DNA from: Acidobacteriota bacterium
GTDB lineage: Bacteria; Acidobacteriota; Thermoanaerobaculia; Thermoanaerobaculales; Sulfomarinibacteraceae
Assembly: GCA_022340775.1 (NCBI GenBank)
Contig: JAJDNH010000004.1
Location: forward strand, 1 to 42,702
Direction: 5' to 3'
DNA length: 42,702 nt
Part shown: one piece after another, positions 18,283 to 28,016 of the stretch
Layout: each line of letters opens with the position of its first letter
Numbering within the stretch: position 1 is the first letter of the stretch
Notes under the pieces: model-generated
Databases searched by the model: none
The model's input: the letters and a program-made list of their open reading frames with translations, nothing else
What the model was told of the DNA's origin: nothing
Made by a program: the position numbers and the translations under genes

Positions 18283-19329
18283 TCAGAAGTCCAGGATAGC
18301 GCGAACCGCCTTGACCACGCGCTCCCGCGTTGGCAGGTAGTGCTTCTCGAGTCTTGCGTAGGGGAAGACGGTGTCAAAACCGGTCACCCGCTGCACCGGC
18401 GCCTCGAGGTGGAGCAATGCGTGCTCGTTGATGAGCGCAACGATCTCGGCCCCGAAACCGGCGGTTCGCGGCGCCTCGTGGACGATGACGGCGCGCCCCG
18501 TCTTGACCACCGACGCGAGCAGGGCATCGCGGTCGAGCGGGTTGAGCGTACGCAGGTCGACGACCTCGGCCGAGATGCCGTCACCCGCCAGCTCCTGGGC
18601 GGCGTCCAGGCACACTCGGACCATCGCTCCCCAGGAGATCAGGCTCACGTCCTCGCCAGCACGAGGAACCGCCGCCCGGCCCAAGGGCACCGTGTAGTCG
18701 TCGGTGGGCACGGCCTCTCGAAAGGCGCGGTAGATCCTCTTCGGTTCGAGGAACACCACCGGGTCTTCGTCACGGATCGCCGACGCCAGCAAGCCCTTGG
18801 TGTCATGCGGGTTGGACGGGATGACGACCTTGATTCCGGGGGTGTGTACGAACAGCGCCTCGTATGACTCGGAGTGGCTCTCCGGCGCGTGGATGCCACC
18901 GCCGAACGGCATACGGATCACCATCGGCACGTGAAAGCGGCCGCGTGTGCGCACACGCATGCGGGCAGCGTGGGCGAAGATCTGGTTGAGAGCGGGGTAG
19001 ACGAAGCCCATGAACTGAATCTCGGCGATCGGCCGCAGGCCGCTCATGGCCATGCCGATCGCAGTGGCCACGATGCCGTCCTCGGCCAAGGGAGTGTCGA
19101 TCACCCGCTGCGGACCGAAGCGCTCGATGAGCCCGTCGGTGGCGCGGAAGACACCGCCGTCGACGCCAACGTCCTCGCCCATCACGATCACGCGCTCGTC
19201 GCGCGCCATCTCGGCCGCCAGGCCGTCCCGCACCGCCTGGGCGATGGTCAGCTTCGCGGTGCTGGTCGTGGGAACCGCCCGCAGCCCGCCTTCGCCGTCC
19301 TCGCTGGGGTTGGCCCGCTGCGCCGTCAT
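18283..19329 (-). CDS. pdhB: Pyruvate dehydrogenase E1 beta subunit
   Basis: This is the 348-aa E1beta subunit, which together with E1alpha decarboxylates pyruvate and acetylates E2. The ORF track extends to 19509, but the ATG at 19329 (MTAQRANPSEDG) overlaps the pdhA stop by 4 nt, and E1beta homology starts shortly after it with KLTIAQAVRDGLAAEMARDERVIVMGEDVGVDGGVFRAT. Other family blocks are RVIDTPLAEDGIVATAIGMAM, VIRMPFGGGIHAPESHSES and PNPHD-like IPSNPHDTKGLLASAI. The C-terminal part has VDLRTLNPLDRDALLASVVKTGRAVIVHEAP, typical of the transketolase C-terminal domain. Length and motifs are normal. Tight coupling with pdhA should secure equal subunit synthesis. Confidence 0.92.
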   Translation of the reverse strand: MTAQRANPSEDGEGGLRAVPTTSTAKLTIAQAVRDGLAAEMARDERVIVMGEDVGVDGGVFRATDGLIERFGPQRVIDTPLAEDGIVATAIGMAMSGLRPIAEIQFMGFVYPALNQIFAHAARMRVRTRGRFHVPMVIRMPFGGGIHAPESHSESYEALFVHTPGIKVVIPSNPHDTKGLLASAIRDEDPVVFLEPKRIYRAFREAVPTDDYTVPLGRAAVPRAGEDVSLISWGAMVRVCLDAAQELAGDGISAEVVDLRTLNPLDRDALLASVVKTGRAVIVHEAPRTAGFGAEIVALINEHALLHLEAPVQRVTGFDTVFPYARLEKHYLPTRERVVKAVRAILDF

Positions 19330-20399
19330 GACGCCACCTCTTCGATCAGCGACCGCATCTGCTCCTCCAGGTTCGCTGGCATCTCCGCGTACATATAGCG
19401 GAAGATGTCGGCCGGGTCGGGCGGCGTCATCGCCTCGAGTGCCTCGATCTGTGAGGAGACCCACTTCGCCGCCTCCTCGGCCAACATCTCCTCCCGCGCG
19501 TCGTCCCACAGGCCCCGAGCCTGCAGGTAGCGGCCGAGCCGCAGGATCGGATCGCGCTCTTTCCAGGCTTCGACCTCTTCTTCGGTCCGGTAACGGCCGG
19601 CGTCATCGGCCGTGGTGTGGTCGCCGAGACGGTAGGTGACCGCCTCGATCAGCGTCGGTCCATCGCCGGACCTCGCGCGTTCGAGCGCCTCCATCGTGGC
19701 TGCATAGACCGCAAAGACGTCGTTGCCGTCGACCTGGACTCCGGGAATCCCGTAGGCCAGCGCCTTCTGGGCAAGGGTCGCGGACGCCGTCTGGCCCGAG
19801 CGTGGAACCGAGATCGCCCAGCCGTTGTTCTGGATCACGAACACCGTTCGAGCCTTGAAGACCCCCGCGAAGTTGAGGGCCTCGTGGAAGTCTCCTTCCG
19901 AGGTGGCGCCGTCGCCGCCGAAGGTCACCGCCACCGCCTGCTCGCCACGCAGGCCGAGCGACATTCCGAGCCCCGCCCCGTGGCCGAACTGGCTGCCGAC
20001 CGGGACCGCGATCGGGAAGCAGCGCACGCCGTCGGGAAACGCCGAGCCGCGCTCGTCGCCCGCCCAGTACGCGAGGACCAGGTGCCCCGGGACGCCACGC
20101 AGGATCATGATCCCGTGCTCCCGGAACGCCGGCACCAGCCAGTCGTCATCGCTCATGGCGAGCGCGACGCCGGCCTGTGCCGCTTCCTGGCCCTTCAGCG
20201 GCGGCCACGTTCCCATCCTCCCCTGACGCTGGAGCTTGACCGCCTTCTCGTCGAAGACCCGCATCCGCACCATGTTGCGGTACAGCTCGAGGACCTGGTC
20301 GTCGTTCAGGCCGGGCATCAACCCCTCGTCCACGACTCCGTCCGGCGCCAGGATCTCGAGGCGCTCGATCACCGACTCGAAGACTGTTGTTCGTGGCAT
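19326..20399 (-). CDS. pdhA: Pyruvate dehydrogenase E1 alpha subunit
   Basis: This is the 357-aa thiamine-diphosphate-binding subunit. The ThDP/Mg2+ motif GDGATSEGDFHEALNFAGVFKARTVFVIQNNGWAIS is complete. So are the phosphorylation-loop region YRLGDHTTADDAGRYR and the substrate-side block GSQFGHGAGLGMSLG. The ORF track begins at 20480; I place the start at the ATG at 20399 (MPRTTVFES) because GGGAGGGG lies just before it on the reverse strand and family similarity begins there. It heads the pdhA-pdhB-pdhC operon. The promoter must lie in the repeat-rich 475-bp region upstream, but I could not pick out a convincing one. The sequence resembles two-subunit PDH of Gram-positive type rather than the single-chain AceE. 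Confidence 0.92.
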   Translation of the reverse strand: MPRTTVFESVIERLEILAPDGVVDEGLMPGLNDDQVLELYRNMVRMRVFDEKAVKLQRQGRMGTWPPLKGQEAAQAGVALAMSDDDWLVPAFREHGIMILRGVPGHLVLAYWAGDERGSAFPDGVRCFPIAVPVGSQFGHGAGLGMSLGLRGEQAVAVTFGGDGATSEGDFHEALNFAGVFKARTVFVIQNNGWAISVPRSGQTASATLAQKALAYGIPGVQVDGNDVFAVYAATMEALERARSGDGPTLIEAVTYRLGDHTTADDAGRYRTEEEVEAWKERDPILRLGRYLQARGLWDDAREEMLAEEAAKWVSSQIEALEAMTPPDPADIFRYMYAEMPANLEEQMRSLIEEVAS

Positions 20400-20486
20400 G
20401 CGGGACCCCTCCCTGATCTGCAGCGCATCAATGAAAACAGGTACGGGCGATGGTCTATTTCGGATGTGGCCCCCACCCACCCAGGA

Positions 20487-20563
20487 GGGTGAGGAGTGAA
20501 GAGTAAGGAGTGAGGGGACCCCCTTCCCGCCCGGGGACCGGATAGAGGTTAGAGGTTAGAGGA
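20487..20563 (-). repeat. Two short heptamer arrays between GGGTGG blocks, upstream of pdhA
   Basis: On the plus strand, four 7-mers GGGTGAG, GAGTGAA, GAGTAAG and GAGTGAG run from 20487 to 20514. Three more, TAGAGGT, TAGAGGT and TAGAGGA, run from 20543 to 20563. Read on the pdhA strand these are ACTCYTY and ACCTCTA units. On that strand a G-rich block precedes the first array (GGGTGGATGGGGG) and another follows the second (GGGTGGGTGGGGG). The unit length and the RCNYCTH pattern match the array at 26883. The arrays lie about 90-165 nt before the pdhA ATG. Confidence 0.65.
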
Positions 20564-20629
20564 AAGACCCCCATCCACCCGCGGAACCCTCCCCAACGCG
20601 CCCCAGAGAATGGTGCGCTCGGCGGGGCG

Positions 20630-20849
20630 TGCCATGCTTCGAGGTTTCCTGGAGTGTGCCCTCAATGCAGGCGCGGCGGCAGGAAACCTCGAGCTTGGCA
20701 ACCCGCGGGGAGGGCGGTCGGCCGTGTGGCCTCAGCTTCGATGGAGGCGCCTCGTTGCCTGCCCGGAGCGGGCCTTGAGGGCAATGAACCGTTGGAGATC
20801 TTCGCCCGCTCCGAGGCAGGCGACGACGGGCGTCTGCAGAGCAGACGTC
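20630..20849. other. Structured intergenic region: two long hairpins with complementary loops
   Basis: No ORF here is convincing; together with the arrays it fills the gap between the lipoyl ligase and pdhA. Hairpin 1 pairs TGCCATGCTTCGAGGTTTCCT (20630-20650) with AGGAAACCTCGAGCTTGGCA (20681-20700). Hairpin 2 pairs CGTTGCCTGCCCGGAGCGGGC (20753-20773) with GCCCGCTCCGAGGCAGGCGAC (from 20804). Loop 1 contains TGCCCTCAA (20657-20665) and loop 2 contains TTGAGGGCA (20775-20783), which are exact complements. A third perfect hairpin, CGTCTGC-AGA-GCAGACG, follows at 20831-20847 and could end the ligase transcript. A structured RNA, a regulatory leader or a palindromic repeat are all possible; the strand is unknown. 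Confidence 0.55.
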
Positions 20850-20874
20850 CGGGCGCCGGAGCTGCAGAGAACCG

Positions 20875-21660
20875 CTAGCGAATCGATTCGGGTACCGGTG
20901 CCCAGCGCAGCTCAGCGTAGCGGTCGAGGAGCGGTGCCGGAATCTCGGGAGAGTCCGCACGCTGTACTTCGAGCTCCAGCGCGGCTGCAAACCGGACGGC
21001 CAGCTCGCTCGCAAGCACCTCGGGCGGGACTGCGGCGGCCGGAGACAGTGCGGCCAGCACCCGCGACGTCGGAACTCTGAAGACCTCGGCATAGAGGGTG
21101 GCGTCGAGGCCGAGCAGGACGGCAGCATGGACCAGCACCGCCCGCCGGCGCCGGGCCTGGGCACAGCCGACCGCTTTCTTGCCGTTCACGGCCAACGTGT
21201 CCGCGAGCTGGTCCTCGAAGCAGATCGGCGAGCGGACGCGAGTCGCACGGCGCGGCCTCTCGAGGCGTTCGACCGCGGCTCCGACGGCCGCTAAAGTAGG
21301 CCCGAGAACGTCCAGAAAACGGCTGTACAGCCCGATCACGCCCGCTGCCCAGGGATGATCCGCAGGCAGAGCCAACGCCACCCCAAGGTCTCTGCTATGG
21401 ACCACACCGGTACCGCCCGTGATGCGGCGCAGCACCGGGATTCCCCTCGCCCGGCAGAGCTCGAGATCGACATCTTCGGCCGGCTGACCGTATCCGAGGA
21501 CGACCACCGGGCCCGGCCACGAGGTCATGAGCAACGACGGTCGGCCGCCAGCGGCGAGCGCGATCAGGACCTCTTCGAGGGCGAGGTCGGCCGACGGTCT
21601 CGCCCCGAGCCGCTCATACACGAGCAGATTCCCGGCGGACACGGCCTGGTTCTCAGCCAT
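20875..21660 (-). CDS. Lipoate-protein ligase / octanoyltransferase (LplA/LipM-like)
   Basis: This 261-aa protein belongs to the BPL_LplA_LipB fold. The substrate-binding block is ITGGTGVVHSRDLGVALALP, equivalent to RRxGGGxVxHxxGxL. The catalytic lysine lies in LAVNGKKAVGCAQARRRRAVLVHAAVLL. The stretch SPICFEDQLADTL places a Cys-Phe where LipM-type octanoyltransferases carry their reactive cysteine, so octanoyl transfer is as possible as lipoate ligation. The ORF track extends upstream to 21828; I prefer the ATG at 21660 (MAENQAVSAG). It overlaps the upstream glycosyltransferase stop by 8 nt, so translation is probably coupled. The genes downstream on this strand encode E1alpha, E1beta and lipoyl-bearing E2, so PDH E2 is the likely client. 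Confidence 0.82.
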   Translation of the reverse strand: MAENQAVSAGNLLVYERLGARPSADLALEEVLIALAAGGRPSLLMTSWPGPVVVLGYGQPAEDVDLELCRARGIPVLRRITGGTGVVHSRDLGVALALPADHPWAAGVIGLYSRFLDVLGPTLAAVGAAVERLERPRRATRVRSPICFEDQLADTLAVNGKKAVGCAQARRRRAVLVHAAVLLGLDATLYAEVFRVPTSRVLAALSPAAAVPPEVLASELAVRFAAALELEVQRADSPEIPAPLLDRYAELRWAPVPESIR

Positions 21661-26844: not shown

Positions 26845-26868
26845 GAACGCGCTACATCCGCGTTCTTT
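26845..26868 (+). terminator. Rho-independent terminator after cysC
   Basis: GAACGCG-CTACATC-CGCGTTC is a perfect 7-bp stem with a 7-nt loop followed by TTT, 16 nt after the cysC stop. The same hairpin in decayed form begins the repeat element at 11473, so this terminator may itself be part of the repeat family. Confidence 0.6.
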
Positions 26869-26973
26869 GGGTGGGTGGGGGGTAGCGTCTAGCGTCTTGC
26901 GTCTTGCGTCTTGCGTCTTGCGTCTAGCGTCTAGCGATCTGCCCGGGTGGGCTGGGGAACCCAATCACCTAAT
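26869..26973 (+). repeat. GGGTGG element, copy B, with heptamer array GCGTCTW
   Basis: GGGTGGGTGGGGGG (26869-26882) is followed by seven complete 7-mers and one partial: TAGCGTC x2, TTGCGTC x4, TAGCGTC, TAGCG. The array covers 26883-26936. Then comes a second GGGTGG block reading GGGTGG-GCT-GGGGAACC-CA-ATCACCTAA (26945-26973), and the AT-rich AATATATTGATAACTTAATCACC. Compared with copy A, the array lies between two GGGTGG motifs that are one motif in A, as if it expanded or inserted there. No ORF is supported in this gap. Confidence 0.7.
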
Positions 26974-26984
26974 ATATTGATAAC

Positions 26985-28016
26985 TTAATCACCTTGGGTG
27001 GGCGGGAGGCTCCCGCAATCCAGCACCAGCGCGCCCTCGACGTCACCGGCCCGCAACCGGTCGAGGGCCGTATTGGCCTCGCTCAGCGGCAGCACCTCGG
27101 TGCGGGTGCGAATCGGCACCCGCGGCGCCAGAGCCAGAAGCTCCTCGCCGTCTCGGCGAGTCAGGTTGGCGACCGACCGCACGACCCGCTCTTGCCACAG
27201 TATGCGGTACGGAAATGAAGGGATGTCGCTCATGTGAATCCCTCCGCTGACGACCACGCCACCCGGGCGGACGGAGCGCAGGGCGGCCGGAATCAGCGGT
27301 CCGACCGGGGCAAAGATCAGCGCCGCATCAAGCTCTTCCGGGGGGCTCTGGTCCGAGCCGCCGGCCCATGCAGCGCCCATCCCACGCGCAAACTCCTGCG
27401 CCGCCGTATCGCCGGGACGGGTGAAGGCGAACACCTTGTGACCCTGGTAGACCGCGATCTGGGCGACGATGTGGGCGGCCGCGCCGAAGCCGTACAGCCC
27501 GAGCCTGTCGATCTCTTCGCCTGCCATGCGGTAGGTGCGGTAGCCGATCAAGCCGGCGCACAGCAAAGGTGCTGCCGCCACGTCGGTGTACTCGTCCGGT
27601 AGCGGGAAGGCGTAGCGCTGATCTGCCACCGTGAGCTCAGCGAACCCGCCGTCGAGGGTGTAGCCATGAAAGCGCGCGTTTTCGCACAGGTTCTCATGGC
27701 CTGCACGGCAGTGGGAGCATTCCCCGCACGTCCAGCCCAGCCACGGCAAGCCGACGCGTTGCCCGGCGCTGAAGCGCTCCACTCCCTCGCCGGCGGCAAC
27801 CACCTCACCGACGATCTCGTGCCCCGGAATCACCGGCAGCTTCGGGTCCGGAAGCTCTCCGTCCACCAGATGCAGGTCGGTTCTGCACACCGCGCAGCAC
27901 CGCACGCGCACCAACAGCTGGCCCGGCTCCGGGTCCGGAACGGGGAGCTCGCGCGGTTCGAGGGGGTTCCCAGGTCGCGCCAGGACCATCGCTCGCATCG
28001 TCTGAGGAATCGTCAT
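26985..28016 (-). CDS. Zinc-dependent alcohol dehydrogenase family protein
   Basis: This 343-aa protein belongs to the MDR zinc alcohol dehydrogenases. The catalytic zinc ligands are Cys44 (CCAVCRTDLH) and the His in PGHEIVGEVV. The structural zinc cysteines are in CGECSHCRAGHENLC. The cofactor fold is recognisable as LGLYGFGAAAHIVAQIAVYQGHKVFAFTR, in which the GxGxxG is altered to GFGAAA, as in a known subgroup of this family. GGAGG lies 7 nt before the ATG at 28016, supporting that start rather than the internal MRAMVLA. Genes on either side point away or belong to other units, so it is probably monocistronic. It likely oxidises alcohols or reduces aldehydes with NAD(P)(H); the substrate is not readable from the sequence. 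Confidence 0.9.
   Translation of the reverse strand: MTIPQTMRAMVLARPGNPLEPRELPVPDPEPGQLLVRVRCCAVCRTDLHLVDGELPDPKLPVIPGHEIVGEVVAAGEGVERFSAGQRVGLPWLGWTCGECSHCRAGHENLCENARFHGYTLDGGFAELTVADQRYAFPLPDEYTDVAAAPLLCAGLIGYRTYRMAGEEIDRLGLYGFGAAAHIVAQIAVYQGHKVFAFTRPGDTAAQEFARGMGAAWAGGSDQSPPEELDAALIFAPVGPLIPAALRSVRPGGVVVSGGIHMSDIPSFPYRILWQERVVRSVANLTRRDGEELLALAPRVPIRTRTEVLPLSEANTALDRLRAGDVEGALVLDCGSLPPTQGD

Follow-up and report, generated by a model that had tools for sequence, protein, structure and literature searches.

A large multi-hairpin extragenic repeat confined to one family of Acidobacteriota keeps its hairpins paired while stem sequences swap between copies

REP sequences fall into classes of 20-40 bp that are tagged GTAG or CGTC, sit between convergent or tandem genes near 3' ends and form head-to-head dimers, and CGTC repeats, too, lack a flanking transposase (PMC3733652). 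In Acidobacteriota, atypical structured repeats have been described together with class 3 TnpAY1, with about 600 copies in Solibacter usitatus (PMC6006769). For the Acidobacteriota hairpin repeat reported here, we found no description in the open-access literature searched. ERIC/IRU and pneumococcal BOX, from unrelated lineages, are composite intergenic repeats that, like the present one, are longer than REPs, foldable as RNA, intergenic and composite or modular; to our knowledge, whole-hairpin swapping at orthologous loci has been described for neither.

The window, by which we mean the whole stretch of 42,702 nucleotides that was analysed, carries at 20598-20871 one copy of a repeat of about 275 bp, whose unit order is P0, hairpin A, hairpin B and hairpin C (all parts of the copy are given on the + strand). 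Sequence, copy alignment and consensus fold place the small hairpin P0 (GCGCCCC-AGAGAAT-GGTGCGC, 20598-20618) at the left edge of the unit. Hairpin A (20622-20708; [NGN]CG-TGCCA-stem-loop-stem-TGGCA-A[NCN], loop about 20652-20679) is delimited by covariation and by a 92.9-bit match to R1, our covariance model of this hairpin; its folded part (20625-20704) comprises ~20 pairs and a ~28-nt loop, and its stem pairing is broken by a T.T mismatch, by a bulged T and by an internal loop (CG/A). The A-B linker contains the short hairpin GGCC-GTGT-GGCC (20720-20731; fold and consensus fold), followed by hairpin B (20752-20826; sequence, fold and consensus fold), with a ~22-bp stem, one mismatch or bulge and a 30-nt loop at 20774-20803, and by hairpin C (20827-20851; sequence and fold), with 11 perfect pairs around AGA. 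A proposed junction (20746-20857), based on the fold and on the consensus fold of 27 copies, would enclose hairpins B and C through pairing of GGCGCC at 20746-20751 with GGCGCC at 20852-20857; in other genera a closing helix around B and C is visible by eye, not always in the minimum-energy fold. The twin hairpins and the third, perfect one reported at 20630-20849 by the first-pass annotation, made from the sequence alone, are thus present, and the region 20600-20880 (281 bases) folds to -172.2 kcal/mol versus -134.7 +/- 5.4 for dinucleotide shuffles (z -7.0; none of 200 shuffles as good), the opposite strand folding less well (z -5.4).

On the right, similarity between aligned copies stops with GGCGCCGGAGCTGCAGAGAA (20852-20872), so that the repeat ends a few bases (within 4 bp) from the stop codon of a lipoyl protein ligase gene (lplA, 20875-21660, - strand; PF21948, 9e-20), and some 200 bp separate its A side from the start of the pyruvate dehydrogenase E1 alpha gene (pdhA, 19326-20399, - strand; PF00676, 2e-85). 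Gene calling and the protein-family matches agree with the neighbours named from the first reading, and both are host genes outside the element. On the left, repeated sequence reaches to about 20470, further than had been noticed before. Repeat coverage defines here a left companion (20470-20596, + strand) made of the C-rich motif CCCCCACCCACCC (20470-20482) and purine-rich minisatellite tracts, which adjoins many copies, not all, is also found alone, and is probably a separate repeat class. Elsewhere in the window, a (TAGCGTC)7.7 minisatellite lies between the G-rich tracts GGGTGGGTGGGGGG and GGGTGGGCGGGAGG (26866-27010), and its G-rich strand could form quadruplexes. Its C-rich boundary, CCCCCRCCCACCC, is found next to different 7-9-mer satellites at other loci; with 129 genomic occurrences versus 2 for the reversed control, it also supports the left companion, and minisatellites with this boundary are probably a second dispersed repeat class.

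With the repeat region of the window as query, about 45 distinct places were found in the organism's own genome (251 contigs, 3.83 Mb), at 76-92% identity over up to 272 bases, a dispersal that the first-pass annotation had not seen; since some copies lie at contig ends, the true number is probably higher. The copies stand at unrelated genes, and their neighbours differ over the 36 copies compared. When genes were called around the copies with a simple codon-usage script, the 22 copies with a called gene on both sides were in 13 cases between convergent and in 9 between tandem genes, with none between divergent genes; of 31 copies, 25 had the C end of the unit directed towards the 3' end of a gene, and no copy overlapped a called gene by more than 60 bp. 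One frame of the repeat looks protein-like by eye, and a protein-coding repeat was ruled out by stops, single-base indels and flat codon-position diversity. Hairpin A occurs in this genome in two stem types, TGCCATGCTTCGAGG and TGCCATCTATGACATT, each with a matching 3' arm. At several loci (L038 1608-2054, L027, L033, L035, L039 and L041) the foot of hairpin A contains an optional hairpin domain of ~110 nt, which at L038 itself encloses another hairpin, with a stem of 14 bp.

The structure of hairpin A is conserved through compensatory change. Across 31 sequences from three genera, pairing is kept in 88.8% of cells, and the covariation score is 0.337, versus 0.120 +/- 0.012 for shuffled and at most 0.146 for slid alignments; the column pair 5-86 reads GC in 15 sequences, AU in 6, CG in 5, UA in 4 and GU in 1, that is, all four Watson-Crick forms and no break. 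The 122 copies from a sister genus score 0.440 versus 0.164, a comparison that leans towards structure because their alignment was fitted to the model. The main stem type of hairpin A conserves the T.T mismatch, the bulge and the CG/A internal loop, the last within an invariant foot, CG-TGCC...GGCA-A. Over whole units, the excess of covariation over random column pairs is modest (12 versus 5.5 and 11 versus 4.5 expected), and the stronger covariation evidence is that from hairpin A alone. Since the copies are related and possibly convert each other, the compensatory counts are not independent events. Units of other genera have the identical A-B-C order with unrelated stems. In genus g8 (L112-L141), loops A and B carry a similar motif, CCTCCCGATTC, despite unrelated stems, and the loops are more conserved than the stems, whereas the opposite is usual.

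A pattern scan of public genomes found hosts among Thermoanaerobaculales, 'Holophagae' and Acidobacteriota MAGs; pattern matches outside Acidobacteriota fold differently and were taken as chance, as were two on viral contigs, whose folds differ from the A hairpin. R1, with scored candidates capped at 29 per genome, matched 13 of the 20 family genomes, five of them with at least 28-29 matches each, and 0 of 129 other genomes of the class; an even sample of 396 genomes across the phylum gave positives in the same family only. Taken together, about 500 other Acidobacteriota gave none. An origin from phages or plasmids was rejected, as no similar DNA was found in collections of either. The repeat is therefore confined, within the sampled phylum, to one family of Acidobacteriota.

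These properties invite comparison with REP, BIME and REPIN sequences (PMC3733652, PMC3116915), which are likewise extragenic, dispersed, palindromic, multi-copy and devoid of coding content, lie near 3' ends in the gaps of convergent and tandem gene pairs, and occur as head-to-head doublets and mosaic combinations with heterogeneous stems and loops. Like REPINs and BIMEs, the present repeat has inverted doublets (in genus g8) and mosaic units, in which A and B types assort independently. Whereas a REP is a single hairpin of 20-40 bp, the Acidobacteriota unit spans ~275 bp and contains three or more hairpins, with stems of 11-22 bp and loops of roughly 30 nt in A and B, and no GTAG/GTGG or CGTC tag stands at the hairpin foot. 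In the GTAG class the repeat flanks a RAYT gene, whereas the Acidobacteriota repeat frames the gene at none of 20 Y1 loci scanned. The repeats associated with class 3 TnpAY1 (PMC6006769) share with ours that they are high-copy, atypical and structured and occur in Acidobacteriota; the repeat studied here, however, is absent outside one family in the sampled phylum, and no class 3 signature turned up in those Y1 proteins whose motifs were inspected.

Comparison between species revealed how units and hairpins turn over. Head-to-head doublets of units, C'B'A'-ABC and about 560 bp long, are found in the sister genus g8, where several unit sites are common to more than one species. At one common site, G016 and G018 carry a doublet and G012 a single unit; in an orthologous gap (L247 1077-1416 and L281 1292-1588), the units of G018 and G012 point in opposite directions, which is what would be seen if an ancestral doublet had lost one half in one species and the other half in the other. 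At two orthologous sites hairpin A is 98.8% and 98.9% identical, versus 86-92% for nearby coding DNA. At other common sites the A stem type has been replaced while linker and flanks stay orthologous, with identities in A versus downstream sequence of 70% versus 89%, 50% versus 87% and 74% versus 96.5% (at doublets, some A comparisons could pair non-orthologous units), and at one site hairpin B has been replaced and hairpin A kept. Six types of A arm recur, and each of them is found in three or four species; within a unit, the types of A and B vary independently (mutual information p 0.21, n 87). It is unusual that hairpins keep pairing while their stem sequences swap between copies. With regard to a possible non-autonomous mobility in trans, as in REPINs and BIMEs, what these comparisons record is the presence or absence of units at sites, together with a lineage-specific copy between lplA and pdhA.

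We consider it probable, at roughly 0.8 (0.82), that the element is a dispersed extragenic repeat, non-coding, clade-specific and built of several hairpins: a large counterpart of REP/BIME/REPIN sequences, with non-autonomous spread and hairpin exchange. Units composed of P0, hairpin A, linker, hairpin B and hairpin C, single or as inverted doublets, would move as non-autonomous DNA, be retained by vertical descent at some sites, and trade whole hairpins with copies elsewhere through ectopic gene conversion or hairpin-specific replacement. Spread and exchange may both pass through a single-stranded or cruciform hairpin intermediate. Copies would be tolerated beside gene 3' ends and excluded from promoter-side gaps, where tolerated they may have a secondary effect on transcript 3' ends, and mRNA 3'-end structure would be the putative host role, if there is one. 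Against this explanation count the failure to find a mobiliser, with the Y1 results given below, the lack of any recent near-identical insertion seen in the own genome and of any target-site duplication established for the copies, as well as the strong compensatory conservation and the identity of hairpin A above that of coding DNA at two sites, which would fit a selected host function. We also entertain, as a speculative and rather improbable refinement, that the fixed CGTGCC...GGCAA at dispersed sites is a scaffold for exchangeable cassettes, accepting complete hairpins from a small common set with both paired arms replaced together; if true, this would imply either an activity dedicated to hairpins in single-stranded form or conversion that is very frequent and limited to hairpins.

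A selected host function is the core of the alternative that the copies make up a family of structured RNAs or mRNA 3'-end elements, each functional by itself, for example ones that block 3' exonucleases or end convergent transcription. Compensatory changes that retain mismatches and internal loops, the location at gene 3' ends and the A hairpins that exceed coding identity at some orthologous sites are consistent with it. So is the strand preference: the consensus energy is lower on the A-to-C strand, where G.U also exceeds A.C. On pairs common to both strand folds this excess is small (36 versus 25 and 32 versus 18; pooled 68 versus 43) and hence does not decide between RNA and DNA; the two strands differ weakly, and DNA, too, tolerates G.T. 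No intrinsic terminator (a G+C-rich stem followed by a U-tract) was found in 20300-21000, and elements lacking a U-tract are not canonical terminators. Most sites, moreover, are not shown to be common between species, and hairpin stems are freely swapped, so we regard this alternative as possible, if doubtful.

The copies could instead be MITE-like or REP-like derivatives moved by resident Y1 transposases of the TIRYT type, a proposal that we think unlikely. TIRYT elements and their miniatures (PMC3733652; TnpAY1 subclass 2.1 in PMC6006769) have counterparts here in that Y1 genes of that type occur in the own genome, which has three Y1 transposase matches, two of them with inverted ends GGTGCCAGGCTT that weakly resemble the hairpin A foot, GTGCCATGCTT / TTGCCAAGCTC. 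These TIRYT-like genes (L052 550-1670 and L053 1410-2491) are bounded by inverted GGTGCCAGGCTT and an element-specific arm, and 72-bp hairpin miniatures of Y1 element ends exist (G000 C125:145-216 and C204). The likeness of motif was, however, spotted after the fact; the terminal sequence common to the repeat and the resident Y1 inverted ends is TGCCANGCTT only, R1 matches neither the Y1 ends nor their miniatures, and GGTGCCATGCTT stands at none of 13 GGTGCCANGCTT sites. Y1 transposase genes exist in the family, yet among 20 Y1-gene loci none has its transposase gene framed by the repeat, and one has a hairpin A in the fetched flank, one-sided and about 1 kb off. Two genomes with many A copies, G007 and G018 (both incomplete), have no Y1 match. 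We regard Y1 as an improbable mobiliser, the likeness of motif coming with no association with hairpin A.

Much less probable still is the idea, raised by the first-pass annotation, of a structured regulatory RNA, in the form of a riboswitch-like or attenuator element acting in cis on pdhA or the ligase gene according to lipoylation. The location between two functionally linked genes and the stable fold suggest it, and its structural half stands on the many compensatory changes described above. The regulatory half fails on the copies at about 45 unrelated places: many unrelated genomic copies had been named there as the observation that would speak against regulation, and they bear out the paired palindromic repeat that had been offered as the other reading. 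The better-folding strand is, in addition, antisense to both genes, and the window gave no match at gathering score to Rfam families, HEARO included, a permissive search yielding sub-threshold matches only. Ten relatives yielded the ligase gene, and in five genera of the family pdhA lay on the same fetched stretch. In four of these five other genera, 59-111 bp separate the aligned lplA and pdhA ends; in the fifth, whose ligase alignment stops short, the distance is 338 bp. The sequences between lplA and pdhA showed no A-type hairpin in any of these five genera. Since the gene pair is kept there without the repeat, the window copy is lineage-specific, and we conclude that chance alone connects it with lipoate and pyruvate dehydrogenase and that it has no specific tie to lipoylation.

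Least probable of all is a kissing-loop RNA formed by hairpins A and B: the nine exact complementary bases on which it was proposed, TGCCCTCAA in loop A (20657-20665) and TTGAGGGCA in loop B (20775-20783), are real in the window copy and the best of 32 copies, the next best having runs of 6, but they are not conserved, loops pairing no better with their own partner than with those of other copies (mean longest run 4.94 within versus 4.76 between copies, permutation p 0.12; duplex energies, p 0.56).

An RNA switch for lipoylation was a tempting lead, and the comparison of copies corrects it: the repeat is ordinary in its position next to pdhA and unusual in its size, modularity and hairpin swapping. 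As a dispersed extragenic repeat, it adds a large, complex and clade-restricted family to the REP/BIME kind, of which little has been described in Acidobacteriota. Its swappable hairpin types at orthologous loci provide a natural record of exchange between dispersed palindromes in bacterial genomes, and are relevant to the question of what keeps REP-like families uniform, or lets them diversify, when no transposase is obvious.
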